Assembly: GCA_019054805.1 (NCBI GenBank)
Contig: JAHQIY010000018.1
Span: forward strand, 930,001 to 994,000
DNA length: 64,000 bases
Direction of reading: 5' to 3'
DNA from: Brachionus manjavacas
Taxonomy: Eukaryota > Rotifera > Eurotatoria > Ploima > Brachionidae
Part shown: piece after piece, positions 3,319 to 53,605 of the stretch
Numbering within the stretch: the first letter of the stretch is position 1
How the letters are laid out: the number at the start of each line of letters is the position of its first letter
The notes under the pieces: model-generated
What the model was told of the DNA's origin: nothing
Database searches by the model: none
What the model saw: the letters and a program-made list of their open reading frames with translations, nothing else
Translations under genes and position numbers: made by a program

Positions 3319-3931
3319 TTAAAGATTATTTTTTTTGAATACAACTTTGCCGAGTTTTTTGTCAAATGGTTCATTCATTTTGTCGAGCATATTTGTGCAT
3401 GATTGAAAAGAAGAAGCCAAGTCCAAAACAAGTGCTTTGAATAAAAATTTTAAATTAGAATCGAAAAATTCAATTAATTACCCAAAGAAAACACAATTTT
3501 TATTTTCAGAGTTTTTTGGTAGGAAAATTCCTTTTGATTATAAACTGAGCATCTTTTTCTGATCGGATCTTCGATCAGAACCTTTGAAAAAATTTATTTT
3601 AATTTTTTTACTAATTAAAAATTTAACATTACGTGTTTAAAATCATTTAAATTTTCAAAGTTATTTACAGCATAGTTTATTGTCAAGTTTATTTGGCACA
3701 CAAATTCTATTTCTGACCATCTCGAATTGTCAGTGTAAATAGGAAACCATTTTTGGTCCTTTATATTTGTTAACAACTGATGAAATGAATTGAAACTAAT
3801 CGGAAAAGTTTTATTTATTTTTGCTTCCTCGCGATTACATGACTCAATTGTGATATTCATTTGCTTTAAAAATATATTAACACTTTTTCTGTCAATATAT
3901 AAGTTAAATATTAAATCTCTAATTTGTCTCC
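3319..3931 (-). other. Unrecognised C-terminal domain of the MACPF/EGF protein (three exons)
   Basis: Exons 3931-3633, 3581-3482 and 3434-3319 join in phase and end in TAA at 3319-3321. They encode about 171 residues after the last, degenerate EGF (which begins DIDECQRMEND). The segment begins RQIRDLIFNLYIDRKSVN, contains few cysteines (one each near MNITIESC, EFVCQ, RKRCS and FQSC) and has a WFPIYTDNSRW motif. It has no transmembrane helix or GPI-type tail that I can see. I cannot assign it to a family; a divergent beta-sandwich such as a ZP- or GAIN-like fold would be speculation. Confidence 0.6.
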
Positions 3932-6900
3932 CTAAATTAAAAATTAATAATTTAATAATTTTAAAGCGATTTTTTACTTGAATAGCATTTCGCTTTGTCG
4001 TATGCATCAACAAGTGTTGTATCCGTGTCCCGGCATTCACAACTATATTTGCCACACTTGTTTACGCAAGAAGCCATAAATATTGGACTTGTTCTACAGG
4101 CGTCTTTAATATTCAAATCGTTTTCCATTCTTTGACATTCATCGATATCTTTATAAACAAATTATAGATTTTTTGATTAATTTTCAAAAGTTAATAAATT
4201 ATTTCATTTTTATTTAAAAATAAAAAAAATCCAAAAGCACTAAATCAAATTTATCAAATTAATTAGGTTCAAAAATATAAATTTAAAATTTTTCTGTAAA
4301 AATTGAATAAATAAGTGATGTTAAATTTCTATTTAATCAAGAGATAAATCAAATAAAGCTATTTCCATATTTTTTTGATTTTTCGTACTTGCCTTTGATC
4401 GTTTAAGACAGATCTTTTAATTATTTAAATAAATTTTCTCTTATAGTCAATGATCCTCTAAGCCTAAAATACTCCTGGTTTTAGAAGAAGGCCTTGGAAA
4501 GCGAATATTTGATATCAAAGAACAACTCGATTCCATCACTAAATAGAATAAATCGCACTGTGACTTAACTAATATCATATGATAACTAAATAAATTTAAT
4601 TTTTTTAAAGTGATCCAAAAAAAGCAATTTGAATTAAAATAACAAAAACAGTAAACCAGAGTCCAGAGTTTTTAAGTCCGTACTTGGATAAGCAAGTTTA
4701 ACAATTTAAAAAAAAAAAGAAAAACTTTTTTTCTATGTTAAATAATTATCTATGATTTAAAAAAAAAGAATTGCGAAATTTGTCACAAATTGTACAACAA
4801 CTTTTTAAAAGAATAAAATTTAAAGCTTAAATAGAAGAAATTAAATTTCAAAATAATCGAGTTAAGTGCATGTTGGAACATGATGCAATTAAAGAACAAG
4901 TTCTAGACTTTTAGAAAAAAAAACTTGAAGATTTTTTATCATTCAGATGCGTTCTTTGGAAGGGGTTGTGAAGTTTATTTCAATTCGATCGTTTCAATTC
5001 AGAAAAACTTGAATAACTTTTTTACTAAAAGAGATAATTCAGTTCTGTGAAATGCTTAATTATAAGCAAATTTGCTTAATGCAGTAAAATAAGTCTGCAA
5101 AATACTATGCAATTTTCTGCATTTTGCACCCCATTAAAAAGTATTCCAATCAAGTGTGCAATTTCATTGCAGAGTTTTTGCAGACATATATTTTTGGATT
5201 AAGCAAAGTTGCTTAACCATTAAGCATTTTACAGAACTAAATTATCTCTTTTAGTAAAAAAGTTATTCAAGTTTTTCTGAATTGAAACGATCGAATTGAA
5301 ATGAACTTCACAACCCCTCTTTGGAACTTAATTTTTCAAAAAATATTTTTTTCAGGTGTCAAATAGGGCAATGCGAAAACTTAGCACATTTATTAAAAAA
5401 AATCAAAAATTGAAATCGATAATAAGACAAACTGAATAAGATTTCTTCTAATGTTAATTTTAAAATTTTTTTAAATAAGAATGCAACAAAAAAAAAATTT
5501 CAAATACAATTTTTAAGAATGCATATTTCTCTTTTTTATTTTTTAAACAGTAATTTTTGTGCCAATTTTTCACATAACTACATCGCACCAAAATGACAAA
5601 AACAAATCATCAAAATGATTGAATTTTGATATTGATTTATAAAATTAAAAAAATTAAAAATTTTCTTTAAGATAAAAAGTTTTTATCTTTTTTCATATTT
5701 CATAATCCTTATCTTATAATTTTGTGTATTTCTCCGTTTTTTAATGAAAATTTTCATACAAGTTTGAAAAAGCATGAAAAAAGTTCGGTTTTTCAAATTT
5801 ATTCAAAAAAAAATAAACAGAAGTTATTTTTGTGATCTTTTTACATTGAAATTAAATAGATTAAAGAAAATATAGGATATTTAGTGTTCATTATTTTAAA
5901 GCAAAAAACTTAAAATTTTTTTCTTTTTTTTATAAAATAATAAAATATATAACTTTCAGATATTAAAAGTTTTTTAAAGGAAATTTCTGATTTTTTTTTA
6001 AATAAAAATTATTTATTTACTGTTAAATAGCTTGGTATTTTAAATGGTATCCTTTGAAAACAACTTTTATCAAAGAGGTAAAAAAACAAAACTTGGTGTG
6101 GATTAAGTTTACCATAAAAGATAGAATTTGTTTTGACTCATTCACTTTTTGCCATTTGATTTTAATTAAACATCCTTTTTCATGTAAAAAAACTCATTTT
6201 TTTTAATCCAGGTGTTTTTTTTTCGCTTTTTTGACTTATGTGTTTTTGTAGATAATGATTTATTTAAATATTGCTAGGGCCTTCTAAATTTTGAGGTAAA
6301 AACTTTTATTATCTTGAAACATTTCATGGTTTTTTTAGTTAAAAATACTATCCACACTATATTGGAACTCATTTTTCCGCATTACAAAAGCCATTATAAA
6401 AGACTATTTAATATTTTTAAGTGTAAATTATTATTTTTTACTATATTCTTAATTATTTTATATTTTTTTTAAAGAAAATTATTTTCTTATTTGTAAATAA
6501 AAAAGAAAAATTAAGTTTAAAAATTTAAAGATTTTTGCTTTAAAATAATAAACACTAAAAATTTCATATTTTCTTTAATCTATTTGATTTCAATGTAATA
6601 AGATCACAAAAGTAACTCCCTCTTTTTTTGTAAACTAAAAATGATAAACATCACCTTAAGTTTGTATACCATGGTGAAAAAGAGTTCAGGATCAGAAAAT
6701 TAAGTCTCTTTTAAAAAGTACCTGTACAGTAGCCTAGAGTTTGATTGTATTCAAAACCTTCGAAGCACTCGCACATAAAAGAGCCTATGGTGTTCCGACA
6801 CAAGCCAAACGAGTAGCAATTTTCTCCTTCAATTGACGACATCGAAAAACAACTCTCATATTCGCACTCATTCATATCTTTTTTCAATAATTTTTGATAA

Positions 6901-9900
6901 AGCCTCTAAAATTAATAATAAAATTTAAATTAAAGATAACCTATGCATTGACTGGAAGTATTTGAATTGATGAAGCCATCTATACAGTCACATCGATAAT
7001 GTCCAATTGTGTTTACACATCTACCAGTGTCATTACACAATGAATGTGCTGAACTCAGAGACAAAGAACATTCATTAATGTCTTCACAAAAGGTTCCATT
7101 TCCGTAAAATCCCTCCAGACAACTGCAATTATAGGAGCCATAAGTGTTCTCACATTTGGCATAGTGATGACACCCGTTTGTTCGACTCTGATCATTACAT
7201 TCGTCAATATCTGAAATTTTACTAATTATTAGATTGAAAAAATTTAAAAAAAAATAATTTAAAAAATAACCATAGCAATAATTAGAATTGGTTTGATATT
7301 TTTCAAAACCAGCCACACACTCGCACCTGTACGAGCCCAAAGTGTTGATACAAAGTGAATTTTCATTACAAGGATGAAATTCTTCGCACTCATTCAAATC
7401 AATGCACATTCCATTCGAGGCGCTTATGAATCCTTTCCTGCACTTGCACTCATAGCTTCCTATTGTGTTTAAGCATTCCAAATAAACATTATTGCTGCAG
7501 ATATTGCTGTTTTCTTTGCACTCATCAATGTCATAGCAGTTGAATCCGTCACCACTAAAACCGAAATTGCACCGGCATTCATATGACCCTGGCGTATTGA
7601 AGCATTTTGAGTTTTGACTGCATTGATCAGCACCCTGTTTACACTCGTCTATGTCTTGACATGTTTTTTGTCCGGTTGGGCGCCATCCTGCATGACAAAC
7701 ACAATCATAGGTTCCGTTCAAATTGACACAATTTGAATTTTTATCACACAAATCCATTTGGCATTCATCTATATCTTGGCAGTGTTGTTGCGACGCAGAC
7801 CATTTGAAACCATCAGCGCACTGACACTTGAAGCCGGCAAACAAGTTTACACACTTTGAATTGTTGTTGCAATTGTGAGAATTCTCGATGCATTCATTTA
7901 TGTCAATGCATTCGGATGAGTTCGATTTTCTGAGACCATTAAAACAGTGGCATTCATAAGAACCAGGTGTATTCAAACAATAAGAATTTAATTTCAAACA
8001 TTCGCTTTCTTTTCCTTGATCAATACACTCATTTATATCTATTCAAATTGAAAAAAAAATTTTTTAAATATTTAGTCGTTTTTCAAAATTTAAAAAAAAA
8101 ATTTAAATTGTTTTTTTTAATTTGAAACTCCTTCTAATTGATTTGAAAATTGATAAATGAATTTTTTGAGAGAATTTAAAAACATATCGAATTTTTGTTT
8201 ATTTTTGAATGTTTTCATGTAGCAGTCCTAAGCTCATACCATGTGATATCAAATGAAATAAACTGATAACATAATTCATCATTTTATTTTATTTTAATTA
8301 ACGAAAACTTTGCTAGTTATTTATAAAGAGAAAGTAATTAGATTGGTATTTTGTTAGTTCTGAATTTGACAAAAATTTGATAAAAATAAAAATTTAAAAG
8401 CTTTTCGTGAAAAACAGTAAAAAATATTCTAGAATTTTAAGAAAAATTGAAAAATAATTAGCAAAAGGTTTGAAAAATAATAATTATTTCATAAAAACCA
8501 AAATCTTTGGGCTGTAACTATAAACAATTCTAGGTTTAAAACTCTATGTGATAATGACACAAACTTTGTAGCACCCGAAGTAGGTTTCTTTAAAAGCTCT
8601 GCAAATCTGTTAATCGCTAAATGTATTAGAAAATCATTTAAATTAAATTGCAGAAACTTAATATTGGTGATATAAAGTTTTCATCAGCTGATTAATTTTG
8701 CAGAACGAGTTTTAGAGCTAAACAAAAAAATTTATTCAATTTTAAATTTTTTCTCTTGCTCTTTGTCTCAAAATTGACATTGCCTAAAAAATTCTGGAAC
8801 TGTTTGCTTTGGTGAAGATTAGAAACTAGCAGAGTTGTTCCTCAAGTCTTAAGTCCCAAGTCAAGTCCAAGTCACGACTTGACTTGAATTTTTTTAATGA
8901 GTAAAATGTTAAATAATTACTTGAGTTGATGTTTTGTTTAATTTTATTTTAACTAAATTAAAGGTTTTGTAAAAATTGGAAATTTCATTTTCCAGTTTAT
9001 TAAAAACATTAACAAAGACTTGAGGAACAACTTTGGAAAAAAGTAACAAATAATTTTTTGTTCACATGCAGATGAACAGAAAGTTGAGTTTGTTGAGATA
9101 ACTTGTTATAAGTCTTGGAATTTAATTAACTTATTATAGATAAAAATTTCAAAGTCCATTGATTAGAAAGATATCAAAATAACCTTTTTTAAAGTTTTAA
9201 TTATTGTACAAAAAGCTGCCAAAAAAATTAAAAGATTTCTAATCAATACTTTTTTGTTTTTTTGATAAAATCTAAAAAAAAAAATAATTTTTTACCTTCA
9301 CAGTCCATTCCTGTGTTGTAGAAGCCATCTTCACATCTACACTCGTAGCTTCCGATAGTGTTAACGCATTTCGAGTTGGAATGGCACTTGGTTTGGTTAG
9401 ATGAACATTCATTAATGTCAAAGCATCCATTTTGTCTGCCATTCCCGTAAAGTCCCTGTTTGCATTGGCATTGGTAGCTTCCTGGCTGGTTAATGCATAG
9501 CCCATATTCAGGATCACACGTGTTTAGACAGAAGCTTGAGCATTCGTCTAAGTCCAGGCACTCGAAATGGTCAGCAGCCCTTGATCCTATAAAACCTGCC
9601 AAGCACTCGCAAGTGAACGAACCGTTCAGATTTTTGCATATAGAATTCGCAGGACAAGGATTTGATTTACACTCGTCAATATCTTCACATATTTGTAAAG
9701 AATTAGACGAATTTTTTATTTCAAAGCCTTTTTCACATTCACAAATTTGTACTGAATCCATCAAATAGCAATACATGTTTATGCCTCCATTGTCAGCTTT
9801 TAAAAAGAGAAAAATTAAATTTTTTGCAATTTTTTATTTATATTAATAAATTTTTATATTATTATTAAGAAAATTTAACAATTAATTATTTCGTACACAT

Positions 9901-12900
9901 ATACCTACACATTTATTATTGATGGAAGTGAGGTTTGCTTGATTACATTCACAAATAAAGGAACCCACTGTGTTTTTACAAACTTGTTGAGGACTGCAAT
10001 CATGTAATCCAAGAGAGCATTCATCCACATCTTGGTAAAATAATTTAAATTCAGAAATTAAGAGCTTCAAATAGATCTTGCTGCATTTTTATAATTTAAT
10101 AACAGATAAGACATGTCCAAATTTATTTAACTAAATAGTTCTCTCTTTGAGCTTATAATAAAATAGATAAATAAAGTATGAACTATGAAGATGAAGCCGG
10201 TAATGTATTTATGTTCAATATTCTCACATAAGCCTGGCAATTAAAATTTTCGTAACTTTCTGTTTGGCATTAATTTAATTCCATTTGGATCTTTAAAAAT
10301 TTGTCTAAATTTTTTTTCAGTAATAAAAAAGAGCTGAAATAATTAATGATTTTATTTATAAACTTAGGTCAAAATGACTTTAAAAGACTTAAGAAAAATT
10401 ATAAATAAATCCAAAATTTTTTTAAAACTAGAACTAGAATTTAATTTTAATTACATAGAAAATTTAAATTTTAAAAATTTTAAAATATTTTATTAGCTTA
10501 TTTTCTATATTAAACATAATAAAATTAATTTTCATTTACTAAAAAATTATTGTGTTTAAGAGTTGTTAAAGCTTGAGATCACTTTTCTAGTTCTAAAATA
10601 ATTATCTATTTTGGATATTTAACTTTATCTGAAATTTGGCTACCTCTTTGCAACAAGATTTATTGAATACCTGTTTATTAGGGAAATATTTACCTTTACA
10701 ACGATTCAAATGATCAATCACAAATCCATGTCCACATTTACAGTAATATGATCCCAAAGTGTTAACGCAAGATGCGTCTGACTCACAGTCATGCAAATTT
10801 AAATGACATTCATTCAAATCTTTTGAACCTTCTAATTTATTTTATTTTAATTTTTTAATTTAAATTTACCTAAACATTTATTATTTGAAGAATAAAATCC
10901 CTGAGAGCATGGTTCGTTTTTTTGGGCCAGAGCGCAAGTATTGTCTTTCCTGTTTAAGTTTTTGCATTCACATAGGTAAGATCCGTCAGTGTTAATGCAT
11001 TTTTGAGTTTTAAGATCACACGGATTTAACACTGCATGGCACTCATTGATATCTATCAAAAGAGATTTAGAATGTTTTTAATATTTTTTAATGGTCTAAC
11101 CATGGCATGATCCATTGTACATGGCATATCCTGGCTCACACACACATTCAAATGAGCCCAATAAATTTTGGCATAAGACATGCTCGCCGACACAATTGTG
11201 TGTCTCTTGGGCACATTCATTTATTTCTTTGCACTCTTGATCTATCATCTTGAAGCCAAGTGGACATCTGCACTCGTAGGAACCTCTAGTATTTTGACAC
11301 TCGGTGTTCCATGGGCAGTCGTTGATCAGCACACATTCGTCGATATCTAAAATTTAATTCTAAATCAACTACAGTCCCAGTTTGTTTTGTTTCTACCTTC
11401 ACAAATGTGTCCGTCACCTTGAAAACCAGGATGGCACTGGCATTTAAAAGAGCCTATTAAATTGATACAATTTGCATTTAGGCTGCAGTTGTCGCTTTTC
11501 ATCACACATTCGTTTATATCTTTTAATTTTTTATTAAATTTGATTCATAAAATTTGGTTTAAATATATTTTGAGTTATTTATGTTTATTTAAAATTTTTT
11601 TGATACACTTTTTAATCTGATGTTACCAATGAGGCTTGAAACAATAAATATGTATATAAAAATCAAGTTTATTATTTTTAATTTAATTTTTATATTTTTT
11701 ACGCTTGAAAACAATTTTTCCTTTAATTTTACTTGATTAGATATTCTTTAAATTGCATTTAAAATTTTTTCAAAATTACACAATACCAAAAATGACTTAT
11801 TTTAGTTTTATTTTCAGGCAAAAAACATTTAGATAAAAAAATTTACATTTAAAAATAAAAGCCTATACTTTTTTTATCACTTATTTAACTTCACTTGTAT
11901 TAATTTACTTAAAACTATAGAAAATAATTAATTTTAGTGCATAAAACGATTTTATTAAGCAAAAAATAATTTTATGAGACTTTTTCAATATAAAATAATT
12001 TAAATATTTAAGACCCTTAAAACTTCAAAATACTTTATCTCACGTTTTGGTCTTTATCTTTTACTAGCAATTACTTTAGTGCTTAATCTTTGAATACAAA
12101 ACTACTATCGGATTCACTTTCCAAATCAAGCATTTTAGATTATGGTGGTAAAAGTAATTTTAAATGCATGTAACATCTTTATAAAGTAAATATATTTTCA
12201 TTTATCAATTCGATTGAAAATTTAATTAAGAAGTTTGCTTTTGATGAAGACCAAAAAAATAAAATATTAAAGATCCCATGATCTTTGAAAAAAAAGATAT
12301 TTATGAGAGATATATCAGGGCAGGACTAAGTCATTCTGTTCAATTGATCATCAGACTGGTGAAAGAATTTAAAGTAGGTTTCGGATCAAGATATATCGAA
12401 TATCCAATTCCATTGTGTAATTGCTACCTAGCAATTATTTTTTTTCCTGAAATATCAAATATTTAAACATGTCTTACCTCTAGCAATGTATCGTTTTTAA
12501 TTTTCTTTTTATATTTATACTCATTTATTCTTTTGTCTTTTTTAATTTTAATTTAATTATATTTTATTTTATTCTGAAGGAGCATTAGCTTGGGACAGAT
12601 AAACAAATTTTTTTGGATACTAAATGTAAATTTTACATTTACTTTCAACATTGCATTTTTTGAATAAACATGAAATTATTTATACATAATTTTTATACAA
12701 TAAAAGATTTGATAAAATTTTAATTATATATTTTAATATAATAAATAAAATAGAGATGCATAATTAGGGAATCATGACTAGATTCTTCAAAAGAATAAAT
12801 ATTCACCAAGAAATTACCAAATATGGTAGGAAAAATTTTTTTAGTTTTAGTTGATAAATATTTAAGTTATCAACTGATGATATGAATTTTTTTAATTGAA

Positions 12901-15900
12901 TTTAAGGCATAAATTTTCTATTTTGTTCTTAAAATATTCTTCATCTCTTCACAAAAGATCTCTTTTGGATTTATGTTTGGTAAAAAATAAATGATAATAC
13001 ATCTTTTTTATTAAGGAAAAAAAATCGACTTCTTTTGAAATTTTTGGTTGTAAATTGTTTTAACAATTCTGCGCAGAATTGTTAAAAATTCATAAAAAAC
13101 TCATCTCATATGACTTGACTAAATTATTTTTTTGAAATTTTAAGAAAAAAAAAAACTAAAAAATATTTAAATTTGTTAAATTTCATAAGATATACAATTA
13201 TCTAAAAATTCAAAGTCATTGTCAGCTTGAATTTTTAGTGGGTTCTAGTTGGTTTTTTGCTTTAAATTTTTCGCTCTCTGAAAAATAAAATGAAAAATTT
13301 TAAAGCCTAAACGTTGCAGGTCATCAAAAACTACAATAAAATTAAAAAAAAGTAAAGATAAAATTATTCTTAACCTCAAATAAACAAGTAAAATTTAAAA
13401 TGCAAGTCAACTGACTTTAAGTCTGGTTCTTGGTAAAATTAACAATTTTTTTCAAGAAATTTTCAAAAAACTTAAGATCCTAGCACCACTGTAAGTATTC
13501 TAAATATTCCAAAACCCACGTTTTTAATTTATTCCATATTTTCAGACATGGGCAAAAGTCATTAAGTCAAAGCTTTTTTTTAAAAAAAAGTCACTAAAAT
13601 TGAAAAATTTAGAGAAAAAAATAAATTTTTATTTTTTTTTCGAAAGATGTTGCTTTTTAAATTAAATGTTGATGTCGAACACTTAATGTTAATTTTTTCT
13701 TTTTTTGATATTTAAAAACAAAATTAAAAAAAAAATTTAAGTCAAGTCAAATAACTTTTTTAAAAAAAAAAATTTAAGTCAAGTCACTGACTTTTTTTTT
13801 TTACTTTTGCCCAAGTCTGCATATTTTGCCCATTTTTTTTTTATAAAAAATATTTTATTCAATTACCTTCACAAAATATCCCGTTTCCAATATAACCATC
13901 TTTACATACACATTTATAAGACCCTTCCGTGTTAAAACAAAGCGAATTTTTCTGGCACTCATTTTCATTTAGACATTCATTGACATCTTTACAAAGCTTG
14001 TCATGGTCAAGATCCGGCTCGTAGCCAACCGGACACTTTTCAACACACAACAAACTGCTTCCATTAACTTTAATGGCCGCAGATGAGCATTTTTTGCACC
14101 CATCGACTCTATAGGGCTCATAGCAGCCATCACAAGCCGCATGGCATTTGTAATCACATACCGCATCTATTGCTCGGTTAAGTGTCGATGACTTTTGGCA
14201 CCGTAGTCTTATTTGCTCTCTTTCCTTGAATTTTTCCAACCTAGCATTCAACACTTGCACATCAGCACTGCGACTGCCAAAGCTGTAATAAGCCGGCTCC
14301 ATTGGACTAGCATCAAAATAGCTCAGGTACAAATGACTCGTTTCATCCGAGTCAATTTGTATGCCGTACTGGACATACAAACCAAACAGCTCACTTCTGC
14401 TCTCATAATTTAAGCAGATGAAAAAATTCTGGTAAATGTCCCCATTTCCGGTTGTTCCGGCGGCCGAGTCTTCATTTAGCAGAACCGCTTTTCCCTTGCG
14501 GTAAAAAACCACTCCTTTAGTGGTTATTTGAAACATGTACCAAGTGTTTTGGTCACTGGGTGTTGTTGCGATTACTACAAAAATCTCGCCTTGACTTGCT
14601 GCCGTAAATTTCAAGCACTTTCCCTGCTGTTCTGTCCGCTCCAAAACCATTATCAAATTGTTCGACCATTTAAGCTCGCATGGCAAAACAGCGTACTTTA
14701 AGTCCCAAATTTTTTTCACCAGTTGTATCGGGTCCAAATAGTCGACCACCCCGATCACCTTGTTCCACAGCCTAATCCAAAACGGGTTCATATTCTTCAC
14801 ATTATTCATGCTAATCTGCAACGACTTGTGCATTCTCTTGCATCGTTTCACATTGCTTTGTCTTTTGGGTCTGCCATCTCTCTTGAACGAATGACTGCTG
14901 ACCGACTTGATGTCAAGTGAGATGAAAGGATTCAGCAGTGAGTTGTTTATCCTCAAGGCTTTTACTCTAAACAAACAATTTGTCTTCATGGAGTATTCGT
15001 GCAGTACTTGGTTCAAATTGACCACGGACACAGTTGAATCGTTTTCGTCGTACTCTAGAACAAGGCCTAAAATGTTGATGTAATTTTTGTGCAGGCTTTT
15101 AAACGGTTCATTGACAAGTCTAGCCGACTGGTACGTGTAAATATCTGACTTTTTTTTGGCCAGCCAAAATTCATTTCTTTTCATGAAGTTGATTTCGTCA
15201 TTTTTTCTGAAGAAAAACTCGTTTTTTGGCAACGAAGAATTGGACTCTATTGATTCATCTTCATTTAGGTTCATTGTGAGCAAAAATTCCTTGCCACCAT
15301 TCATCAGGTGCTCGCTAGTGGGCGATATATAATTGAGAATGTTGAAGCGGCACTCAGTTGAGCCTTTTTTGATAAAAAATTTTGTCGAAGTTAGACCAGT
15401 GGGCTCCTTGAGGTAAACTGTGATGGCAAATTTAAGAGCGTCAAGCTTGTTTTTCCATTTGGTCTCAAATTCTTCGATGGTAAATCCGAACTTGCAGTGC
15501 TTTTTGGCATAATCAGCACAAATTTTGCGCTCTTTGTCGCCCATATGGGCAAATAACATGGGAACATTTATGTTCAGTATTGAGACTATGGGCTCGTATT
15601 TGAAGTCAAAGGCTCTCGGATACTTGTGCACTGTTTTCAGCCATCCTATAAATGTGTCACTGAAATCCGGCTGATTTAAATTGGCCACTATCGCAGCTAC
15701 TTCTTGACTGCCACCTTTTACTGATATATAAGTGCTGGCATATTCACTCTTTTTTCTTCAAAAAAATATTTTTTTTTCTAGTCAACTAGCTGTAAATGTA
15801 CCTACGTTTCACCTTTTTCTTTATCCTGCTTTTTGTTCTGTTTATTTGTGTCACTCTTGGTGTTTTCTTTTTTCAGCATGACCCTGGCTAAAAAAGCATT

Positions 15901-18900
15901 AGCTTTTATATTCCAACTTCGACTGAACATTTTCATGCTGTCCTGAATGCATTGTTGAGAAAAAGTTTCAATGCTAGATGTTTTGGTCTTGTGCATTGTG
16001 TGCATTATTTTGAATTCGCCACCGAATTTTGCCGACACAACCACGTGAGTTCCATACCTTAAAATGAATTTATCTTTTAAAAAATAAATTGTTTTCTTTG
16101 TAAGCTTTTATTTGAAAAAGTATTTACCAAATTTTTCAGGTGCATCCTCATAAAAATAGCTGTCCGGCAAGGATAAAAAATCGACCAAAAACTCCGGATC
16201 TAGGTTCCATGGCCGAATTTGGTCTAATATTAAATCGTATCTTAATTTATAAATTTTAAATTTTTTTTTAGGAAAATTTTTTTGTCTTTTTTTTTATCAC
16301 TCTCTATTATTTGATCTGACAATTTACTTTTTTTCTGGGAAAATCGGGTTCATGTCCATTTTGTGATCAGAGTCCAAAAACCACATCAGTTTGTAAACAC
16401 TCGTGATTTTTTTGATAATAAAAATTTTGAAAAATGGTCATGACATCTAATCACAAAGTAGATATGAACCCATTTTAATTTTAACCCGAAAAATATCAGG
16501 CAATCATGCTTTATTAATTAATTTGATCAAATGTTAAAAAATAATTTTCATTTTTATCAATAAATTAAAATACTAGATTTAAGATTCTTAGAAAAAAAAA
16601 TTGCAAAAAGACCCTGCACCCAAAAAAACTAATGAGGAACTAAAACCTAAGAGACAATGCTCAAATTTCATTTAGATGTTAGGAGCAAAAATAAGAACAT
16701 CTGAGAAGGTGCAAAATTTAAAAATAAAATAATTTTTTTTAATTTGATAATATAAAGTAATTTGCAGGTATTTGATACCGTAATTCGTGTTGAGAACTTA
16801 AAGGCTAAAGCTCAAAGCAAACATTTTTTCTATTAGAGTCAATTACATAGTTTATTTGTTATAGCAATTAAGATTAAATTAGAAAAATTTAAAATTAAAA
16901 AATTAAAAATATTGCGGAATTAATTTCCAAATAGAAAAAAAGTAAAATTTAAACTTTTTTTATGAGAGTAAAGGCAGTTTTTTTGTTAGAGAAAAAGTTA
17001 AATTTGGACTTGATTATTTGGAAAATATCCCATATTCAATGTATTTTCTATCTAATTTAATTTTAACTTGTTTTATCAAATAAACTACAGTACTGCTATG
17101 ATTTTCTGTTTTTACGTAATTTTACGTGAAATTACGTAATATCCGGTAGTTTTACGTAAATTCTGGTAAAATTATTTAAATTTACCAGAGTAAAAAAAAG
17201 TAAATATACCGGATTTTTTCAGAATTTACGTAAAATTACCGGATATTACGTAATTTTTGTAAAAAGTAATTTTACGTGAAATTTTAATTGAAAATGGTAA
17301 TTTTTAGTAAAAAAAAAGTAAATTTTATGCAAATTTTGAAAAAAGTAATCTTAAACAATAAACAAAAACGCAAAAGCAAAAAAGTTTAATTTTATACTAC
17401 TTAATATAATTCAACGATTCGATCAGTCTCCATTTTTCTATAACCACTTTACTCATCTTAATTTATATTAATATTTTTTTTAAAGAAATTTTTTGAAATT
17501 ATATTTAATTAATGAATATTTAGAAAAAACTTTATGTTCAATGAATGAAAACATTAAGAAACTAAACACAAATGTTTCTAAACTAAACAACGAATAAAGC
17601 CATTAAAAAATTTATTATTATTTATTTAATAAATTTTTTAATCATTAAATTGGGGGTGAAACTGACACTTCTTTTTTTTCACCAGAAACCAAAAGAAAGG
17701 TCGAGAGAACTTATAGTAGTTTCAGTGATAGCTAAGCTAGTAAAACCATAAGTATTCTTATATTTTTTTTTAATATAATATTTTATTTAAAAATCTTAAA
17801 ATACAAAAAAAAGTAAATAATAAGCCATTTACGAATCGTCTCAGAAGTGAGATAGTGAAGAGATTTGTAAATGATAAAGGACAGACTCTAGGGTGTAATG
17901 AAAAAAATTTCCTAAATAAATGGAGGAAATAAAAAGTTAGTATTCAAATGAAAAAAAACAGCTTAATTGTTTTTACTAAAAAGGTTTGTTGAATCTTGTG
18001 CCAAAGAATTCTAGTTTCAAAGAATTATGGATTAAAACTGGTGACAGCTATAGAAATTATAAAATAAAAAAAAAAAACTTCTGAAAATTTTTTTTTAAAA
18101 ATTTAAAAATTTTTACTTTTTTTTTACTAAAAATTAACATTTTCCAAATAAAAGGAAATTTTTTTTTCTCCAAATTCAGGCCCAAAAAATTTTTAAAAAG
18201 TTAGTATTTTTTGGAATTTTTACTTTATACAAAAATTACGTAATATCCGGTAATTTTACGTAAATTCTGGAAAAATCCGGTATATTTAATTTTTTTTTCT
18301 TTGGTAAATTTACATAATTTTACCAGAATTTAGGTAAAACTACCGGATATTACGTAATTTTACGTTAAATTACGTGAAAACAGATAATCATAGCATTACT
18401 GTATGTAATTAACTCTAATAGAAAAAATGTGGATTTGGGCTTTACTCTTAGAGTCTCAACACGAGTTTACGGTAATAGTTTGTGTGACAATTTTTTTTTA
18501 ATAATAAATAAAATTTTATAGATCAATAATTGGAGAGAATGCCAAAAGCCTTTTAAATATATTCGGTTAATTAATAAAAAAATATTCCATCGACTTGGAA
18601 ATGCAAAAATTTTATCTTTAAATAATTAAAATTAAAATCGGGGTTGATCAGACCAAAAAACTATCAAAAACTTCATAGAATTTTCAAATAAAGCCTTTAA
18701 TTTTTTTGGAAATACTTAAAATAAGTTTTCTGGGATATTTAATTTTTTTTCAAGTCTAAAGTTTAAATAAATTTACATTAGAACAGTTGATTGGATTTGA
18801 AAAAGCCAGAAATCGGAAGAGGTTGTTTCCTTATTGACATTTTGGTTCAAATTACTGTTACGATTTGTCTTATCATCTGATAAATCATAGCCTGGTGAGA

Positions 18901-20058
18901 GAATTTTTTGATTATTTGCACCACCATAAGCATTTTTTGAGTCTGATCTTTAAATTTTTTAAATCTTTTATTTTTCAATTTCAACAAGAAAAAAAATTAC
19001 ACTTACGAAAAAACATTGGTATAGCGATCTAAATTTGATCTGCTGGCAACAAATTTCATATAATCAGATGATTCTCCAAAAGTAGTTGTCTGGGTCTTGG
19101 TATCATAAATTCCATTTGCAGTCATTATATCAGGCACTGTATGATGATTAAAGCTAAAAATACTAACTAGAAAAAAATTAAAATTTTTAAAATTTTTTTA
19201 CTATTTTTGATAATTGCAGTAGCGAGTGATTATTGATTTTCGGCGAGAATTTTCGCTGTTCTCGTATTTTATATCAAAACCAGTGCCTAAAGTGTAAGCT
19301 CCGGAAATCATTTTCTAAATAGAATTATTAAGATAATTTTTAAATTTTATGACTATATCTACTTTGCATTCGGTAGCAGTCTCAAGTTTGGCATATCTTC
19401 TACAAAAGCTTTTCATATCAGTGTAGTTACTGCTTTGCATTGAGGCTCTTTTTTTGCGTCTAAAATCACCTGAATCAAATTGCATGTCGTCATCCATTTG
19501 AGCCAGTTCTTCTGTTGACTTGGTTTGTGGCATGCCGGTGAATTGGTGACATCCGCTTAGCAAAAAACTACCCAAACCAAATGGATATGAAAATTTTAGC
19601 TTTGAAGACTCGGTTACTTCTGGAGACTCTTTGGAACTAATTAATTTAAAGATAATAGAAATATAATAAATATAAGTTATTAAAGATAGCAATATATTCT
19701 ACTTGGTTTGTTTGCGGATGTGAACATCTCCCGGTTTAAACCTGTTGTCTGATTTAAATCCTGTTCCTCGCGATAGAACTATTTCTTGATCCTTATAAAT
19801 TTAATAAAAAAATTTTATTTAAAAATCCTAAGTATTTACATCTTTTAATTTTTTTATGTAGGAATTGAGAAAATTATCAGTATCTCTTTTGATCCGATTT
19901 GATAAATCTTCATGTTTTTTGATAAAATTGTTATAGCTGCTTGTTTTGGACTCAAATACCGGGTCTTCATCTTCAATAGAAACTCCGTCGTCTTCATTTA
20001 CACTTGAAATATAGTTCTTTACAAATCCAATTAAGTAAAAAATCAAAAACCAATTCAT
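3319..20058 (-). CDS. Secreted MACPF-domain protein with about 21 EGF-like repeats, 22 exons
   Basis: Exons, in transcript order on the minus strand: 20058-19840, 19791-19703, 19636-19363, 19314-19202, 19153-19007, 18947-18777, 16240-16128, 16073-15806, 15755-13867, 11519-11397, 11346-11101, 11052-10870, 10819-10694, 10030-9905, 9796-9296, 8038-7271, 7210-6941, 6877-6722, 4148-3978, 3931-3633, 3581-3482, 3434-3319. All 21 junctions are GT-AG and in phase, giving about 2155 residues. Order of parts: signal peptide (MNWFLIFYLIGF...), propeptide ending in a furin-type RRKKR site (about 162-166), MACPF domain (about 190-540, start GAYTLGTGFD; signature YGTHVVVSAKFGG at 382-394), a linker, a small Cys-rich segment, then about 21 EGF-like domains (about 1052-1984), most opening D-I/V/L-N/D-E-C as in calcium-binding EGF, and a C-terminal domain of about 170 residues (1985-2155). 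EGF-bearing exons are symmetric phase 1-1. MACPF proteins oligomerise on membranes, some forming pores; whether this one does is unknown. EGF exons could still be missed in the large introns. Confidence 0.85.
4961..5318. mobile_element. Foldback/MITE with 7-bp target duplication
   Basis: The two halves are near-perfect inverted copies of each other for about 120 bp per arm. The ends are AGGGGTTGTGAAG at the left and CTTCACAACCCCT at the right. CTTTGGA at 4954-4960 is repeated at 5319-5325 as a target-site duplication. It lies in the 2.6-kb intron between exons 18 and 19 of the MACPF/EGF gene. The duplication size is closest to hAT-like insertions (usually 8 bp), but no transposase is present. 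Confidence 0.8.
5817..6622. mobile_element. Inverted-repeat element in MACPF/EGF intron
   Basis: The left arm from about 5820 (AGTTATTTTTGTGATC...) matches the reverse complement of the right arm ending near 6620 for about 100 bp. Shared inner pieces include ACATTGAAATTAAATAGATT and TTAAAGCAAAAA. The roughly 600-bp centre has no open frame. It is the second foldback element in the same intron. Confidence 0.6.
8039..9295. other. Large intron between exons 15 and 16 of the MACPF/EGF gene
   Basis: About 1.25 kb without an EGF-coding exon that I can find. At 8828-9036 the ends AGTTGTTCCTCAAGTCTT and AAGACTTGAGGAACAACTTT are inverted copies, marking a small MITE of about 200 bp that also has internal AAGTC-rich repeats. 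Confidence 0.5.
11520..13866. other. Large intron between exons 9 and 10 of the MACPF/EGF gene
   Basis: About 2.3 kb of A+T-rich sequence with no convincing coding exon on either strand. At 13553-13820 inverted ends (AGACATGGGCAAAAGT and ACTTTTGCCCAAGTCT) define another small foldback element rich in AAGTCA repeats. A segment near 12765-12810 shares about 25 bp (GACTAGATTCTTCAAAAGAA...) with the reverse complement of 1835-1862, so it belongs to a dispersed repeat. Confidence 0.5.
15806..19314 (-). other. MACPF domain core exons
   Basis: Exons 4 to 8 carry the start and core of the MACPF fold. Exon 4 opens with GAYTLGTGFD, like the LGxGYD start of many MACPF domains. Exon 8 must use the acceptor before 16073, giving DKFILRYGTHVVVSAKFGG, the (Y/F)GTHxxxxxxxGG signature with the usual preceding FI..Y. 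A later AG at 16058 would break the frame. Exon 9 continues with SEYASTYISVKGGSQEVAA, which resembles the second-sheet SxxxxGG segment of the family. A Lys/Gln-rich insert (after KKENTKSD) sits where the second transmembrane-hairpin helices would be expected. Confidence 0.75.
16776..18480. mobile_element. Large foldback element in MACPF/EGF intron 6
   Basis: The outer ends TACCGTAA and TTACGGTA are followed inward by a matching inverted block (CGTGTTGAG... and ATTTTTTCTATTAGAGT), then by a second matching inverted block at about 17090-17260 versus 18225-18410 built of TTACGTAATATCCGGTA-type repeats. The insertion is next to TA on both sides, compatible with a mariner-like TA target. About 240 bp present only in the left arm (16855-17085) suggest a later insertion. 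No transposase frame is visible. Confidence 0.65.
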
Positions 20059-20741: not shown

Positions 20742-22166
20742 TTATTCATCATCATCATCTTCATCTTCATCATCATCATCATCGTCTTCCTCGTCATCTT
20801 CATCATCATCTTCATCATCATCGTCATCATCAGCTTCAGCTTTTTGCTGGTCATCATCATCTTCGTCATCATCATCTTCATCCTCATCATCATCTTCATC
20901 CTCATCATCATCTTCATCCTCATCATCATCTTCATCATCATCCTCATCATCATCATCTTCGTCTTCACCAGTTTCCATTTCATCGTCTTCATCCTCATCA
21001 TCTTCATCTTCGTCCTCTTCTTCAACTTCTAATTTTCTTTTTCCATTTTTGTTCTCTTCCTGTTTCACTTTACCATTCATTTTGGTAGCAGGAGTTTCTT
21101 TCTTTTTTTCTTCTTCCTTTTTGACCAGTTGCTCGCCCTTGGTGTTTTTTAATTTTTTTGTAGCAGGTTCTTCAGTTTTGGCAACAGTTTCCTGTTTCTT
21201 TTTGGGCTCTGGTTTTTTAAAAGAAAAATCAACAACAAGTTTTTTTCCATTCAACTCTTTTCCATTAGACGCCTCGAGAGCTTTTTTCGCCTCTTGTTCA
21301 TTGGCAAAACTTGCGAAAGCAAAACCAAAGTTCAACTTGGTATCCTTTCTAATGGGTAGATTAAATTCAGTGCAGTTTTTGAAAAACTTCTTCAAATCTG
21401 ATTCAGTGCAGGTCTTTTCGAATCCACTTACATGAAGTTTTTTCATATCATACTCTTTTGGTTGATCTTTTTTTAGTTTATCTTTTTTGATATAAGAACT
21501 CTTTTCGCCCACAAAGTCAATAACCAAATCTTGGTCGCGGATTTTTTTATGCTGCAGTTCTTTGTAATTTTTATTAGCTATTTCCTCAGTTTTAAATTCC
21601 ACATGAGCAAAAGTGAATTGTTTTCCCATTTTTTTATTTTTTTTATTGATATTTTTTCTGGAACGTTTGATTCTTACTTCTTGAATATCAGCCGACAAAG
21701 ACTTGATTTCATCATCAGTCACATCGTTCGGCAACGACTTCAAGAAGAGAGTACAAGCATCAGAAGCTTTTTGTCTATTTGGCGTGCTTTGTTCTTCGCT
21801 TGGAACGCTTTCTGGTTTTTTATCTTCAGTTTCTTTTACAATTCCATTTTTACCATTTTTTACTTTCTTTTTTTTATCAACTTTTGGCTGATCAACCTTC
21901 ATTTGTGCGTCTTGAACTGGTGTTTTTTTTTCCACTTTTATTTCTTGCTTTGGCACTGGTGTTTTCTTCTCCACCTTGATCTCTTGGACTTTTTTTTCAG
22001 CTTTTATTTTCACCTCCACTGGCTCGGCTGATTTTTCTACTTTCTTTTTTTCTTGTTGTTGTTTTTTCTTCATGTTCTCTTTTGGTTTGAATACCTCAGT
22101 CTTTTTGACTGCCCCAGATTGATTCTGTTGTTTTTTGGCTTTAACCTTTTCCGGTTTCTTGATCAT
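20742..22166 (-). CDS. Nucleolin-like two-RRM protein, copy 1 (intronless)
   Basis: A single open frame of 474 residues. Order: a Lys/Glu-rich basic N-terminus with repeated KVEKKTPV units (about 1-130); RRM1 from about DACTLFLKSLPNDVT with an FTFAHVEF RNP1-like motif; RRM2 from KKLHVSGF with GFAFASF as RNP1; a Lys/Glu spacer (TKMNGKVKQEENK); and a tail of about 80 residues that is almost only Asp and Glu. Nucleolin and related nucleolar RNA-binding proteins have the same ingredients but carry the acidic part at the N-terminus. A role in rRNA maturation is inferred from family. The tail is encoded by GAT/GAA/GAG triplet runs and probably varies in length. Two further copies lie upstream on the same strand. 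Confidence 0.8.
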   Translation of the reverse strand: MIKKPEKVKAKKQQNQSGAVKKTEVFKPKENMKKKQQQEKKKVEKSAEPVEVKIKAEKKVQEIKVEKKTPVPKQEIKVEKKTPVQDAQMKVDQPKVDKKKKVKNGKNGIVKETEDKKPESVPSEEQSTPNRQKASDACTLFLKSLPNDVTDDEIKSLSADIQEVRIKRSRKNINKKNKKMGKQFTFAHVEFKTEEIANKNYKELQHKKIRDQDLVIDFVGEKSSYIKKDKLKKDQPKEYDMKKLHVSGFEKTCTESDLKKFFKNCTEFNLPIRKDTKLNFGFAFASFANEQEAKKALEASNGKELNGKKLVVDFSFKKPEPKKKQETVAKTEEPATKKLKNTKGEQLVKKEEEKKKETPATKMNGKVKQEENKNGKRKLEVEEEDEDEDDEDEDDEMETGEDEDDDDEDDDEDDDEDEDDDEDEDDDEDEDDDDEDDDDQQKAEADDDDDDEDDDEDDEEDDDDDDEDEDDDDE

Positions 22167-23601
22167 TTTTTTTATCTATTTAAAATAAAATAAATTTTTG
22201 TTAAAACACATGGCTACAGTTTAAAAATTCAACTCAATTTATAATATTTTGTTTAGCATTTTATTCGAATGTTTTAGAAATATTTGCACGTGCGTTTTTT
22301 TAATGCAAAATTTTCTAAATATTTTCTCAAAGTATTCTTTATATGAGATATTAGTTTGTCTTTAAAAAAATATCAAATTATTTTTATATTATTTAAACAG
22401 AAAATTTAATTTTTGTGTAGACTTGAATTTTTTTTTAATAATTCGAATTAATTTAATTTAAAAAACATTTAAATTTTGTGTAAATTTTTGTTGATTAAAA
22501 ATTTAGAGCGTGGCATAACTTTTGTCTTGGTTTAAATAAAATTTTCAAACTTAAATTTAAATTTTTCAGGTCTTTTATAACAAAAACTTAAATAACAGAT
22601 AAATTAATTATGCTTTTTTATTTTAGATTTAAATATTGTTTGATTGTCGATAAGATTTCATTTTAATTTGTAATAAATTTAAATTTTTGTTAAATTTAAT
22701 TTTTTTTTTTTTTAATTTCCATTATTATTGATATTATATGCATTATTTGTTATTTTTTTGTCTAGAAAAAATATTTCTCATTACTAGGAGATACTAATAA
22801 ATGAAAGTTTAATCTTTTACAAAAAAACTTGAGAAGAATATTTAAGCATATCAATTCTCAAACAATTGCTATTCAAATGTCAAAATTATCACTATTTTAG
22901 ACTTCATCATTTCCATAATATATTTTTTTTAAAAAAACTACTGCTTTTGAATTAATTTTTATTACATATTAGAGATTAGAAAGGAATTATAAATTATTAA
23001 ATTTTCTTTATTAAATAAAAATCATTATACAAGAGTCAAGTACTAGTCATGAATTGAAAAGTTTAACAATTACTTGAAGCCTAACTAATTTGAAAAAAAA
23101 ATTAAGTATGAAACTTTTCTGAATTAAAATATGTAGTACAAGTATTTTATTTTTAGCCTCTCTTTCAATGAAATTGATAAGTTTTAAGCGATTTATCGAA
23201 AAAAATATAGAAAATTTTATTAAATTAATTCAAGCCTTAAAAAAGCCTCTATTTTAAAATTAATACTAAAATTAAAGAACAGGTTCTTTAAAAAAGCATC
23301 AAAAATTTTGCATAAAAACAGTTCGACCTTTTTCGGTAAAAAAAATCAAACAGATTCTTCTATTTTGGTTAGATTTATGGCCAACCCTAACTAAAAATGA
23401 TTTCTTTTTCAATTCATAAATTTTCTATATATATTAAAATAAGCTTTGACTTTAAATATATTTAAGAGAAGCAACTAAAGCGATGACTTTGACTTAAGAA
23501 CTAAAGAGACAATTATTAAAAACTAAATTTTTGATAAAAAAAATGAATTTTCTTTTTAAATTTTATTTAACTAAAACAAATTAGATATTACACAAAAAAG
23601 A
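22167..23601. other. Intergenic between nucleolin-like copies 1 and 2
   Basis: About 1.4 kb of A+T-rich DNA with long T and A runs; no coding frame, tRNA-like fold or element end that I can support. Confidence 0.5.
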
Positions 23602-24912
23602 TTATTCATCATCCTCATCTTCGTCATCATCATCTTCGTCATCATCATCTTCGTCATCCTCATCCTCATCATCTTCGTCATCCTCATCATCATCTTCATC
23701 CTCATCATCATCATCATCTTCATCCTCATCATCATCTTCATCCTCATCATCATCATCATCCTCATCATCATCTTCGTCTTCACCAGTTTCCATTTCATCG
23801 TCTTCATCCTCATCATCTTCATCTTCGTCTTCTTCTTCAACTTCTAATTTTCTTTTTCCATTTTTGTTCTCTTCCTGTTTCACTTTACCATTCATTTTGG
23901 TAGCAGGAGTTTCTTTCTTTTTTTCTTCTTCCTTTTTGACCAGTTGTTCGCCCTTGGTGTTTTTTAATTTTTTTGTTGCAGGTTCTTCAGTTTTGGCAAC
24001 AGCTTCCTGTTTCTTTTTGGGCTCTGGTTTTTTAAAAGAAAAATCTATTTTCAATCTTTTACCTTTAAATTCGGTTCCATTCAATGCCTCAAGTGCTTTT
24101 TTAGCCTCCTCTTCTGTGCTGTATGAAGCAAAAGCGAAACCAAGATTCAATTTACTATCTTTTTTGGTAGCCAGGGAAAAAGATTTGCAAGTTTTAAATA
24201 CTTTATTTAGATCCTCTTTAGTAGCGGTTTTATCAATACCTCCGATATGAAGCCTTGTAAAATCTTTTTCCTTTTCTTTATTCTTGGCTGGTGTTTCTTG
24301 TTTTACATAAGAACTTTTTTGACCAACAAAATCAACAAAGATTTTACTACCGCGTATTTTTTTATTTTGTAATTCTTTATGATTTTTATTAGCGATATCT
24401 TCACTTTTAAATTCAACATAGGCAAATGGTGGTTGTTTTTTCTTTAGGGCTTTAATTCTAACTTGTTGAATATCAGCCGACAAAGACTTGATTTCTTCTT
24501 CAGTCACATCTTCTGGTAAAGATTTAAGGAATAAAGTACAATCGTCAGAAGCTTTAGGCCTATCTGGCGTGCTTTGTTTTTCACTTGGAACACTTTCTGG
24601 CTTTTTATTTTCAGTTTCTTTTACAATTCCATTTTTACCATTTTTTACTTTCTTTTTTTTATCAACTTTTGGCTGATCAACCTTCATTTCTTGCTTTGGC
24701 ACTGGTGTTTTCTTCTCCACCTTGATCTCTTGGACTTTTTTTTCAGCTTTTATTTTCACCTCCACTGGCTCGGCTGATTTTTCTACTTTCTTTTTTTCTT
24801 GTTGTTGTTTTTTCTTCATGTTCTCTTTTGGTTTGAATACCTCAGTCTTTTTGACTGCCCCAGATTGATTCTGTTGTTTTTTGGCTTTAACCTTTTCCGT
24901 TTTCATAATCAT
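23602..24912 (-). CDS. Nucleolin-like two-RRM protein, copy 2 (intronless)
   Basis: A single open frame of 436 residues with the same plan as copy 1: basic N-terminus, RRM1 (DDCTLFLKSLPEDVT), RRM2 (TRLHIGGIDKTATK with GFAFASY), Lys/Glu spacer and acidic tail. The N-terminal 70 residues match copy 1 almost exactly, apart from MIMKTEK instead of MIKKPEK and one fewer KVEKKTPV unit. RRM2 has clearly diverged from copies 1 and 3, while the spacer and the start of the tail are again nearly identical in all three. The patchwork suggests gene conversion. Sequence upstream of the ATG (to about 25065) also resembles that of copy 3. Confidence 0.8.
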   Translation of the reverse strand: MIMKTEKVKAKKQQNQSGAVKKTEVFKPKENMKKKQQQEKKKVEKSAEPVEVKIKAEKKVQEIKVEKKTPVPKQEMKVDQPKVDKKKKVKNGKNGIVKETENKKPESVPSEKQSTPDRPKASDDCTLFLKSLPEDVTEEEIKSLSADIQQVRIKALKKKQPPFAYVEFKSEDIANKNHKELQNKKIRGSKIFVDFVGQKSSYVKQETPAKNKEKEKDFTRLHIGGIDKTATKEDLNKVFKTCKSFSLATKKDSKLNLGFAFASYSTEEEAKKALEALNGTEFKGKRLKIDFSFKKPEPKKKQEAVAKTEEPATKKLKNTKGEQLVKKEEEKKKETPATKMNGKVKQEENKNGKRKLEVEEEDEDEDDEDEDDEMETGEDEDDDEDDDDDEDEDDDEDEDDDDDEDEDDDEDDEDDEDEDDEDDDDEDDDDEDEDDE

Positions 24913-26780
24913 TTTTATCTAGTTTATAGAAATGTAATTATTTTTTTTTTTAAATTAAACTCATGCTTACAATTTTTGAAATTCAATTTTTAAAAGATTT
25001 TTCTATAAACGTGCATTTAAAAAAAATAATTTTAAATCAAGATTCAAATTAAATTGTCTTCGAAACATACATAGACAATGAAAAAAGAACCCAATGGATA
25101 TTATAGGTTCTTTTTTATAAAGGAATTTTTTTGTTATTTTTTGTTCTTTTTGGTTCTTTACTTAAGATCATCAGTTCTTTTTCCCTTATTTTAAAAAGAA
25201 CCTTTATAAATCTTTTAGGTTCTTTTTAGTACTTTTTTGTTTCTTTTTGGATTCTTTTTAGGTTCTTTTTTGTTTTTATTGTTTTTTTTTGAAGTTCTTT
25301 TAGGTTTTTTTTTGGTTAGTTTTGGTTTTGGCGGATTGCGGGGAAGGTAAACGGGGTCCGGGGCGGTTCTCTGGTTTAGGGCTACGGTTAATAAGACGAT
25401 AAGGTAAGTCCTAGATTTCAATTGAGATTTTCAAAAAGAACCAAAAAGAACCTGAAAGAACCATAAAGGTTCTTTTAAAAAAATGGAAAAAGAACCGATG
25501 ATCTTAAGTAAAAAAAGTACAAAGAACCAAAAAAACCTAAAAAGAACCTAAAAAGAACCATAAAGTTTCTTTGAAAAAAAAAGGAAAAAGAACCGAAGAT
25601 CTTAAGTAAAGAAATTATAAAAAACCAAAAAGAACCTAAAAGAACCTCACAAGAACCAAAACGAACCTGAAAAAATCTGAAAGAATCAGAAATATTCATT
25701 TATAAAAATTTAAAAAGAACTCTATTTTTTTATTCGAATTGATTTATACTGAATTTTTGTTCTTTTTTTTAAGAGCACCTTAAAGAACCAACAAGTTCTT
25801 TGACTATGGGTCCTTCGAAAATTTAAATGCTTTATTATTTTTCAAAATTCTATTTTCAATTAATTTTTTTACATTTTTTCTTCAATTTTTAATAATATCA
25901 ATTTCATTTTTATAGATTTTCTAGAAAAATTTAAAATTTACTAGAAGATTTTTTTTTAAACAATTTAAGCTTTATTTTTAAATTTTTAATCACATTTTAA
26001 TTAATTCATTTTGAATAAATGAAGCATTGATCTCTATTTATCGGTAATACAAGAAAAACGAAAAATAAACTATTTTTTAATCAAAAATTCAAAAATAATA
26101 AAAATTGACCAAATTAATTTGAACAGGTTCATTTTTTTATAGCTTATATTAAATTTTTATTGATTGATAAAAATAAAGTTAAATAAATCCTAAAATTATG
26201 CTGTTAAAATTCATTCATTTAAATATTAAAATTTTTTATACAAATTTATAATATTAATATTAAAATAGTGTTCCTCAGAATTAATACCAAATAATGTTTC
26301 AAGAGCCTAAAGAAGCCAGGTCAATTTCTAACAAAAGATGCAGAATAAATGGTAAAATCTAAGCTTTTATTTTCTTTTCATTATTTTAATTGAGCTAAAA
26401 AATAACTTTTACAAAAGAAATTAGTATTTCAAAAAGTGATTTTGATCGAAAATATTTTTTAAAAATTGTCAATATTACGCTAAAAAAATTATCTTATTTT
26501 CAAAATTGTTATTATTCTTCTTTATTTCAAGGCATGAAATCAATTCTCCATTAACCGAAACTTTTTTAAATAAATGATTATCTGCAAGCATTCTGAATTC
26601 ACATTTAATTACAAATAAATCTATTTTGCAAATTTCGCAAAAATTGGTTCAAAATATTAACTTTTAAGGAAATTTTTCAAGAAGAATATTTTTTTTAATC
26701 TTTTAAAAAAAAACATTTAAAAACAATCTAAATTTTAAATTTTTTTTATTAAATTTAATTAGAAAATAGACTAAAAAGAT
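24913..26780. other. Intergenic between nucleolin-like copies 2 and 3, with a foldback element
   Basis: About 1.9 kb. The left 150 bp are the 5' flank of copy 2. From 25069 to 25808 lies a foldback element (separate entry). The remainder is A+T-rich with nothing recognisable. Confidence 0.5.
25069..25808. mobile_element. Foldback element with GGTTCTTTTT repeats and a G+C-rich core
   Basis: The left arm is built of GGTTCTTTTT repeats and the right arm of AAAAAGAACC repeats, so the whole segment can fold on itself. A marker block, ACTTAAGATCATC near 25161, returns inverted near 25498 and again near 25595, so the right arm contains a tandem duplication of about 95 bp. The centre (25352-25386) is G+C-rich with GGGGTCCGGGGC and CTGGTTTAGG. 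The same two core motifs and a similar ATAGACAATGA end occur in the element interrupted by the LTR retrotransposon at 48.5-54.5 kb. Open frames here (e.g. 25215-25421) are products of the repeats, not genes. Confidence 0.65.
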
Positions 26781-49047: not shown

Positions 49048-49506
49048 CTATTTTGTGTGCCTACCACGTTTAGTGGTCTTTTCCGGAGCGCAGGAAACAT
49101 TACCTGGATCTCTAGCTGCTATCGTCTCAGTTGGTTGATCCTGTGTTTGATCAGCTGGCTGAGTCGTTGATTGATCGCTCGCTACTATTGACTGAGCGTG
49201 AGCTTCTTCCCTCTTTTCAACTGTGAAGTCAGAGTCCTCAGCGGGAAGTTGAATACCGACTGCCGGAGTCATTTTAGTGCTGGATTCAATCCGCTCATCA
49301 ATATTGCTCAAATTACCATAGTCTTCATCGTAGCAGTAGCCTTTGAAAAACGATGAATTTCTCACTACTGTGTGCGGTTTTGGGAATTCGCGTTCGGCAG
49401 TCACCATTGCGCCATTCATTTGAACCACTCGATAGGGATCTGGATCCCATGGCGAAACATTTTTTTGCGGTCTGGACTCGCTTGAATAGTACCAAACTTC
49501 CAACAT
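49048..49506 (-). pseudogene. 3' end of pol in a shifted frame
   Basis: This frame continues the integrase C-terminus (SPWDPDPYRVVQMNGAMVTA, a GPY/F-like module) but is out of frame with the main gag-pol frame. The shift falls at a run of seven A (49460-49466, minus strand), which suggests an indel in the homopolymer or a +1 frameshift site. The frame ends at TAG 49048-49050, yet stays open after it (EAARREAEAKKKEAA...) until a TAG at 48922-48924, inside the 3' LTR. So both a frameshift and a premature stop may have hit this copy. Confidence 0.7.
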
Positions 49507-53584: not shown

Positions 53585-53585
53585 A

Positions 53586-53603
53586 TAGTTATCCTCGTCG
53601 CCA
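53586..53603 (-). other. Primer-binding site
   Basis: In element orientation TGGCGACGAGGATAAC begins two bases after the 5' LTR. TGG pairs with the CCA end of a tRNA; which tRNA cannot be settled here. Confidence 0.7.
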
Positions 53604-53605
53604 GA

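Follow-up and report, generated by a model that had tools for sequence, protein, structure and literature searches.

The order of a MACPF domain followed by an EGF-like domain is common, and it is the one given for the terminal complement components C6-C9 and for perforin-1 in the excerpt of PMC3477005 used here. Complement C7, which a paper on architecture errors deals with, has in addition TSP1, LDLa and Sushi domains (PMC3927609, excerpt) and perforin a C2 domain (PMC3477005, excerpt). MPEG1 (perforin-2) belongs to an ancient animal MACPF family in which, according to the available part of PMC3477005, the MACPF domain precedes a Cys-rich region not believed to be EGF-like and the protein has a transmembrane anchor. 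Astrotactin-1 and astrotactin-2 combine MACPF with several EGF-like repeats; in astrotactin-2, as far as the accessible sections of PMC4892435 go, EGF-like, Fn(III) and annexin-like domains come after MACPF, other EGF repeats come before it and two membrane helices are present. The MACPF signature Y/F-G-T/S-H-X7-G-G is defined in PMC5483515, which in the portion available also reports that the tryptophan of a GGXnW motif is present in pore-forming MACPF proteins and absent in astrotactins, Torso-like and BRINPs, and that there are MACPF proteins for which pore formation was not observed. No description of a long calcium-EGF rod attached to MACPF was found in the open-access literature searched (domain databases may already catalogue one), nor was anything relevant found there on a rotifer, Brachionus or mollusc counterpart. 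Papers on the ctenophore tentacle, coral settlement, anemone venom and the anemone pedal disc name MACPF and EGF in the same lists or tissues, and in the excerpts at hand mention no fusion of the two.

The locus described here lies in a 64-kb stretch of DNA (the window; contig C18:930001-994000, GC 29%) of a 114-Mb genome in 61 contigs. It represents an intact gene for a large, probably extracellular MACPF protein. Positions are those of the window, and the C24 paralog is a second, shorter gene found in the same genome.

3319..20058, minus strand: whole gene, 22 coding exons, 2146-residue protein (exon table and translation)
19999..20058, minus strand: hydrophobic, signal-peptide-like N-terminus, residues 1-20 (11-residue mean hydropathy 2.42 at residue 3)
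19447..19461, minus strand: putative polybasic furin-type site RRKKR, residues 162-166, before the MACPF core (pattern scan)
15566..18859, minus strand: MACPF domain, residues 314-531, exons 6-9 (Pfam PF01823, E=2.7e-22)
16018..16056, minus strand: MACPF signature YGTHVVVSAKFGG, residues 385-397 (motif as defined in PMC5483515)
15641..15715, minus strand: GG-Xn-W motif, residues 482-506 (W aligned with complement C6)
14861..14872, minus strand: putative furin-type site RPKR, residues 763-766, in the interval between MACPF and the middle module (pattern scan)
14234..14698, minus strand: unnamed middle module, residues about 821-975, common to the C24 paralog (borders by eye)
13991..14206, minus strand: Cys-rich stretch, residues about 985-1056 (paralog alignment)
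13871..13987, minus strand: first calcium-type EGF repeat, exon 9 (Pfam and cysteine-pattern scan)
3978..11519, minus strand: EGF rod encoded by exons 10-19, with another 19 calcium-type EGF repeats (Pfam and cysteine-pattern scan) and one EGF-like stretch that lacks the calcium start motif (by eye)
3319..3931, minus strand: unnamed C-terminal domain, exons 20-22, the least certain part of the model
3394..3518, minus strand: borderline hydrophobic stretch, residues about 2097-2122, at the exon 21-22 junction (Kyte-Doolittle)

The splice sites were picked by reading the sequence and were afterwards checked by script. In the rebuilt gene, which runs from 20058 to 3319 on the minus strand, all 21 introns are GT-AG and in phase and the sole stop is terminal, which bears out the 22 in-phase exons of the first-pass annotation; the large single protein proposed there also stands, at 2146 rather than about 2155 residues. 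One or two in-phase GT-AG alternatives within open frames exist at 17 of the 21 junctions, and 6, 9 and 6 such alternatives at junctions 12, 13 and 14; the count of zero at junction 4 comes from a scan that ended one base before the chosen donor. Introns 9-19 are of phase 1 throughout, as expected for shuffled EGF exons. Exon 9 is contained in a stop-free block of 632 codons, the chance of which is about 7e-24 given the base composition of the window. Codon usage, modelled on ORFs elsewhere in the window, sets all 22 exons apart from the local noncoding null (P <= 0.0075 each, 2000 draws), the per-codon score being near zero for exons 1, 5 and 20-22. A gene finder built for the purpose, whose training set included blocks of the MACPF-EGF gene itself, returned a single 10-exon gene spanning MACPF and EGF exons; its model left out exons 1, 2, 4-7, 13, 14 and 20-22, included exons 3 and 8 in part, treated intron 16 as coding and did not extend beyond exon 19.

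Three introns of the gene exceed 2.3 kb and 16 of the 21 measure 39-108 bases. By eye, stretches rich in TTTACGTAA at about 17.1 and 18.25 kb in intron 6 (within 16241-18776) resemble each other, and in intron 18 (within 4149-6721) the sequences at about 5.0 and 5.25 kb match in inverted orientation. Three tandem nucleolin-type-like genes with very acidic C-termini lie on the minus strand of the window at 20748-22175, 23602-24918 and 26781-27998; the first copy has two RRM_1 stretches (E=3.4e-20), and the second and third were recognised from their ORFs only. They are accompanied on the same strand by a class V aminotransferase gene of cysteine desulfurase-like type at 29466-30582 (Aminotran_5, E=2.9e-62 for 29938-30582) and by a 1442-codon open frame at 49325-53653 that by eye resembles a Ty3/gypsy-type retrotransposon polyprotein. 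The plus strand carries extracellular-type ORFs at 33479-42089 (CUB at 33479-34633, EGF repeats at 36201-38051 and 40935-42086), possibly parts of one large gene. A tRNA scan of the 64-kb window found none.

The MACPF and EGF parts might be two adjacent genes that were wrongly merged: exons 9 and 10 are separated by a long intron (2347 bases), and the frame of exon 9 hits a stop shortly past the donor. Exon 9 alone, however, encodes the last part of MACPF and, after it, the middle module, the Cys-rich stretch and an EGF_CA repeat, the first of the protein, so that the MACPF-EGF join is independent of splicing. The exon 9-10 intron, scanned for ATG frames of at least 18 codons, contains two, neither with a phase-1 donor by the criteria applied, and shows no obvious exon with which an EGF gene of its own could begin. 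In the C24 paralog, too, MACPF comes first, then the module and then the EGF repeats, three of which share a block with the module. The presence of EGF_CA in the MACPF exon and the paralog led to the rejection of the merger, which is very improbable. Together with the Pfam match, exon 9 and the order in the paralog support the earlier reading of the MACPF region and the EGF fragments as one gene that comprises head, EGF_CA rod and unnamed C-terminal end, the end being its weakest part.

For the Pfam scan the protein was divided into four pieces of 560, 537, 833 and 216 residues. The spliced protein scored 80.4 bits against PF01823 (curated cut-off 21.5) and the unspliced exons reached 43.9 bits in the genome search, which supports the joins of exons 6-9. 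The MACPF match anticipated in exons 4-9 was thus located in exons 6-9 (E=2.7e-22), and the MACPF block of the C24 paralog aligns in its N-terminal part with exons 4-5. The signature is present in both genes, as YGTHVVVSAKFGG in the window gene and YGTHYIHSAEFGG in the paralog. The whole protein has 22 N-glycosylation sequons and RX[KR]R motifs at four places (residues 55, 163, 763 and 772), the second and third of which are the putative furin-type sites listed above.

In the rod, PF07645, the second family expected from the start, matched 18 + 1 stretches above threshold and one more weakly (E=0.21). The cysteine-pattern scan gave 20 EGF repeats, with the mid-repeat Asn/aromatic motif in 20 of 20, and a separate scan counted 20 starts of the [DE][ILVM][DN]EC type, one per repeat; the per-row start flag of the cysteine scan fails in 4 of the 20, where the pattern is out of register. 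One EGF-like stretch lacking the calcium start motif was seen by eye at residues 1366-1403. Exons 10-14 matched Notch, NELL, uromodulin and CD97 in the PDB, all with serial EGF_CA repeats as in the window protein. Fibrillin is likewise a protein of serial calcium-type EGF repeats, and the Notch, NELL, uromodulin, CD97 and fibrillin families are not known to have a MACPF head.

Between MACPF and the rod lies a module of about 155 residues that is conserved in two genes and unrecognised by Pfam; the first-pass annotation had not separated it out. In the Cys-rich stretch that follows, Pfam gave a weak Furin-like match (E=0.11) in one of the two aligned sequences. From its pattern, the module was considered as a possible PF12248 domain (Methyltransf_FA, farnesoic-acid methyltransferase type). 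This identity was dropped because neither of the two sequences matched it in Pfam at E<=10, and a PF12248 search of the genome in which nothing matched had controls that were silent too. A profile search of the PDB with the module and the Cys-rich stretch produced three matches with E of at least 1.3, all to one methyltransferase, which were taken as chance, and single-sequence structure prediction of the same region reached a mean pLDDT of 37.3, too poor for a fold search.

The C-terminal domain had no Pfam match over the cut-off, no PDB match at E<=5 and no second copy in the 114-Mb genome at E<=10. It is the least certain part because the codon scores of exons 20-22 are near zero and the gene finder ended after exon 19. 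The highest 19-residue Kyte-Doolittle mean of the protein, 1.68 at residue 2100, exceeds the value of 1.6 usually taken to mark a possible membrane helix, so a C-terminal membrane anchor is possible; the N-terminus reaches 1.13. Secretion of the protein is plausible, with this borderline hydrophobic stretch near its C-terminus.

The genome was searched for MACPF exon by exon with four candidates scored, and two loci were found at E<=0.001: the window gene and C24:863542-864216. The MACPF domain of the C24 paralog is one uninterrupted block of 414 codons, 32% identical to the window gene and scoring 70.6 bits with Pfam; used as a query, it gave seven matches at E<=10, of which one was the query itself, four lay at the window gene and two at other sites (E 0.53 and 4.6). 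The post-MACPF region of the window gene matched the paralog weakly (E=0.022 and 0.002). The middle module and the Cys-rich stretch recur in a 468-codon block of the paralog, 40% identical between the two genes, together with three EGF repeats; two more EGF-like units come after this block and then, by eye, a short end. A genome search at E<=1 found the middle module at the window gene and the C24 gene only. The order of parts is the same in both genes, with about 5 EGF repeats in the paralog versus 20. Exons 1-3, including the first furin-type site, had no convincing match in the paralog, and neither further EGF repeats nor a C-terminal domain of the window type were found at the C24 locus. 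LINE-type reverse transcriptase frames (L003 1989-3544 on C24, plus strand) lie antisense between the paralog exons, by eye. That this shorter paralog has it as well shows that the combination of MACPF and EGF is real.

The window protein resembles the complement components and perforin-1 in the order of MACPF and EGF-like domains, in the signature and in the GGXnW motif, and its PDB matches at E<=1 include C6, C7, C8 alpha, C9 and perforin-1. It differs from them by the 20 EGF repeats and the unnamed middle module. TSP1, LDLa, Sushi, C2 and FN3 gave no Pfam match at E<=1 in the four pieces of the protein, which was therefore not placed in the complement, perforin or astrotactin families; the GGXnW tryptophan that it keeps is absent in astrotactins (PMC5483515, excerpt). 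The architecture had been called unusual, and this holds for the long rod and for the middle module shared with the paralog. A MACPF domain followed by an EGF-like domain is common; the unusual features are the number of EGF repeats and the unnamed module between MACPF and the rod.

A crude comparison of the two hairpin regions of MACPF, with borders set by hand from the alignment, was made between the window gene and the paralog. The charged fraction of region 1 is 20% in both genes, and that of region 2 is 0.31 in the window gene versus 0.15 in the paralog. The beta hydrophobic moments are 0.53 versus 0.47 for region 2 and 0.42 versus 0.43 for region 1. The similar moments of region 2 do not support a loss of pore formation, and since the charge differs but the moments do not, the evidence on pore formation is mixed. 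Full pores would be less likely for the window protein than for the paralog, because its hairpin region 2 is rich in Lys and acidic residues.

The placement of a MACPF domain at the tip of an extracellular fibre, as suggested at the outset, fits the anatomy predicted from the sequence. The rod stiffness in question is known of fibrillin-type repeats. After export of the protein, calcium would stiffen the EGF rod, the stiff rod would keep the MACPF head away from the matrix or cell surface, and the head so placed would bind target membranes. If a furin-type protease cut at residues 162-166, a pro-segment could be lost; a cut at 763-766 could separate head and rod. The most likely role would be that of a defence or adhesion protein that is anchored to the matrix or a surface and binds membranes. 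The explanation as a whole, a membrane-binding MACPF protein anchored to matrix or surface, with a calcium-stiffened rod and with full pores less likely than in the paralog, is given a probability of roughly 0.4.

The best PDB matches of the MACPF region point to complement: C6 (E=7.6e-5) and then C8 alpha (2.4e-4) with the single sequence, and C8 alpha alone at E<=0.01 (best 1.8e-5) with the two-gene profile. They would suit a pore-forming immune effector that acts as terminal complement or perforin does and is anchored or clustered by the rod, and so would the GGXnW tryptophan, absent in developmental MACPF proteins (PMC5483515, available part). Such an effector is nevertheless unlikely, as the PDB scores are modest, with C9, perforin-1 and C7 following at E 0.016-0.09 (C9 and perforin-1 at 0.016 at least) and an unrelated chain interspersed, and hairpin region 2 is 31% charged. 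The charged hairpin region and the very long EGF region would agree with a non-lytic developmental, egg-coat or cell-adhesion protein like astrotactin, BRINP or Torso-like, and MACPF proteins not observed to form pores do exist (PMC5483515, in part). This reading is held to be just as doubtful, since the GGXnW tryptophan is kept, unlike in the three proteins named (same excerpt).

Returning to the anchored membrane-binding protein, it may tentatively be proposed, at well below even odds, that the MACPF proteins of this animal all belong to a distinct animal MACPF class, defined by MACPF, the new middle module and an EGF_CA rod that varies in length. Such a protein would be a perforin tethered to the matrix or a surface, and the count of its EGF repeats (about 5 versus 20) would determine how far it reaches. 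If the head works on membranes, the window gene would encode a perforin-like module carried by a long rod that depends on calcium; no description of such a layout was found in the open-access literature searched. The window gene and its paralog have the same order and differ, besides general divergence, in rod length, tail and hairpin composition, and their comparison could therefore show what the rod and the hairpins contribute.
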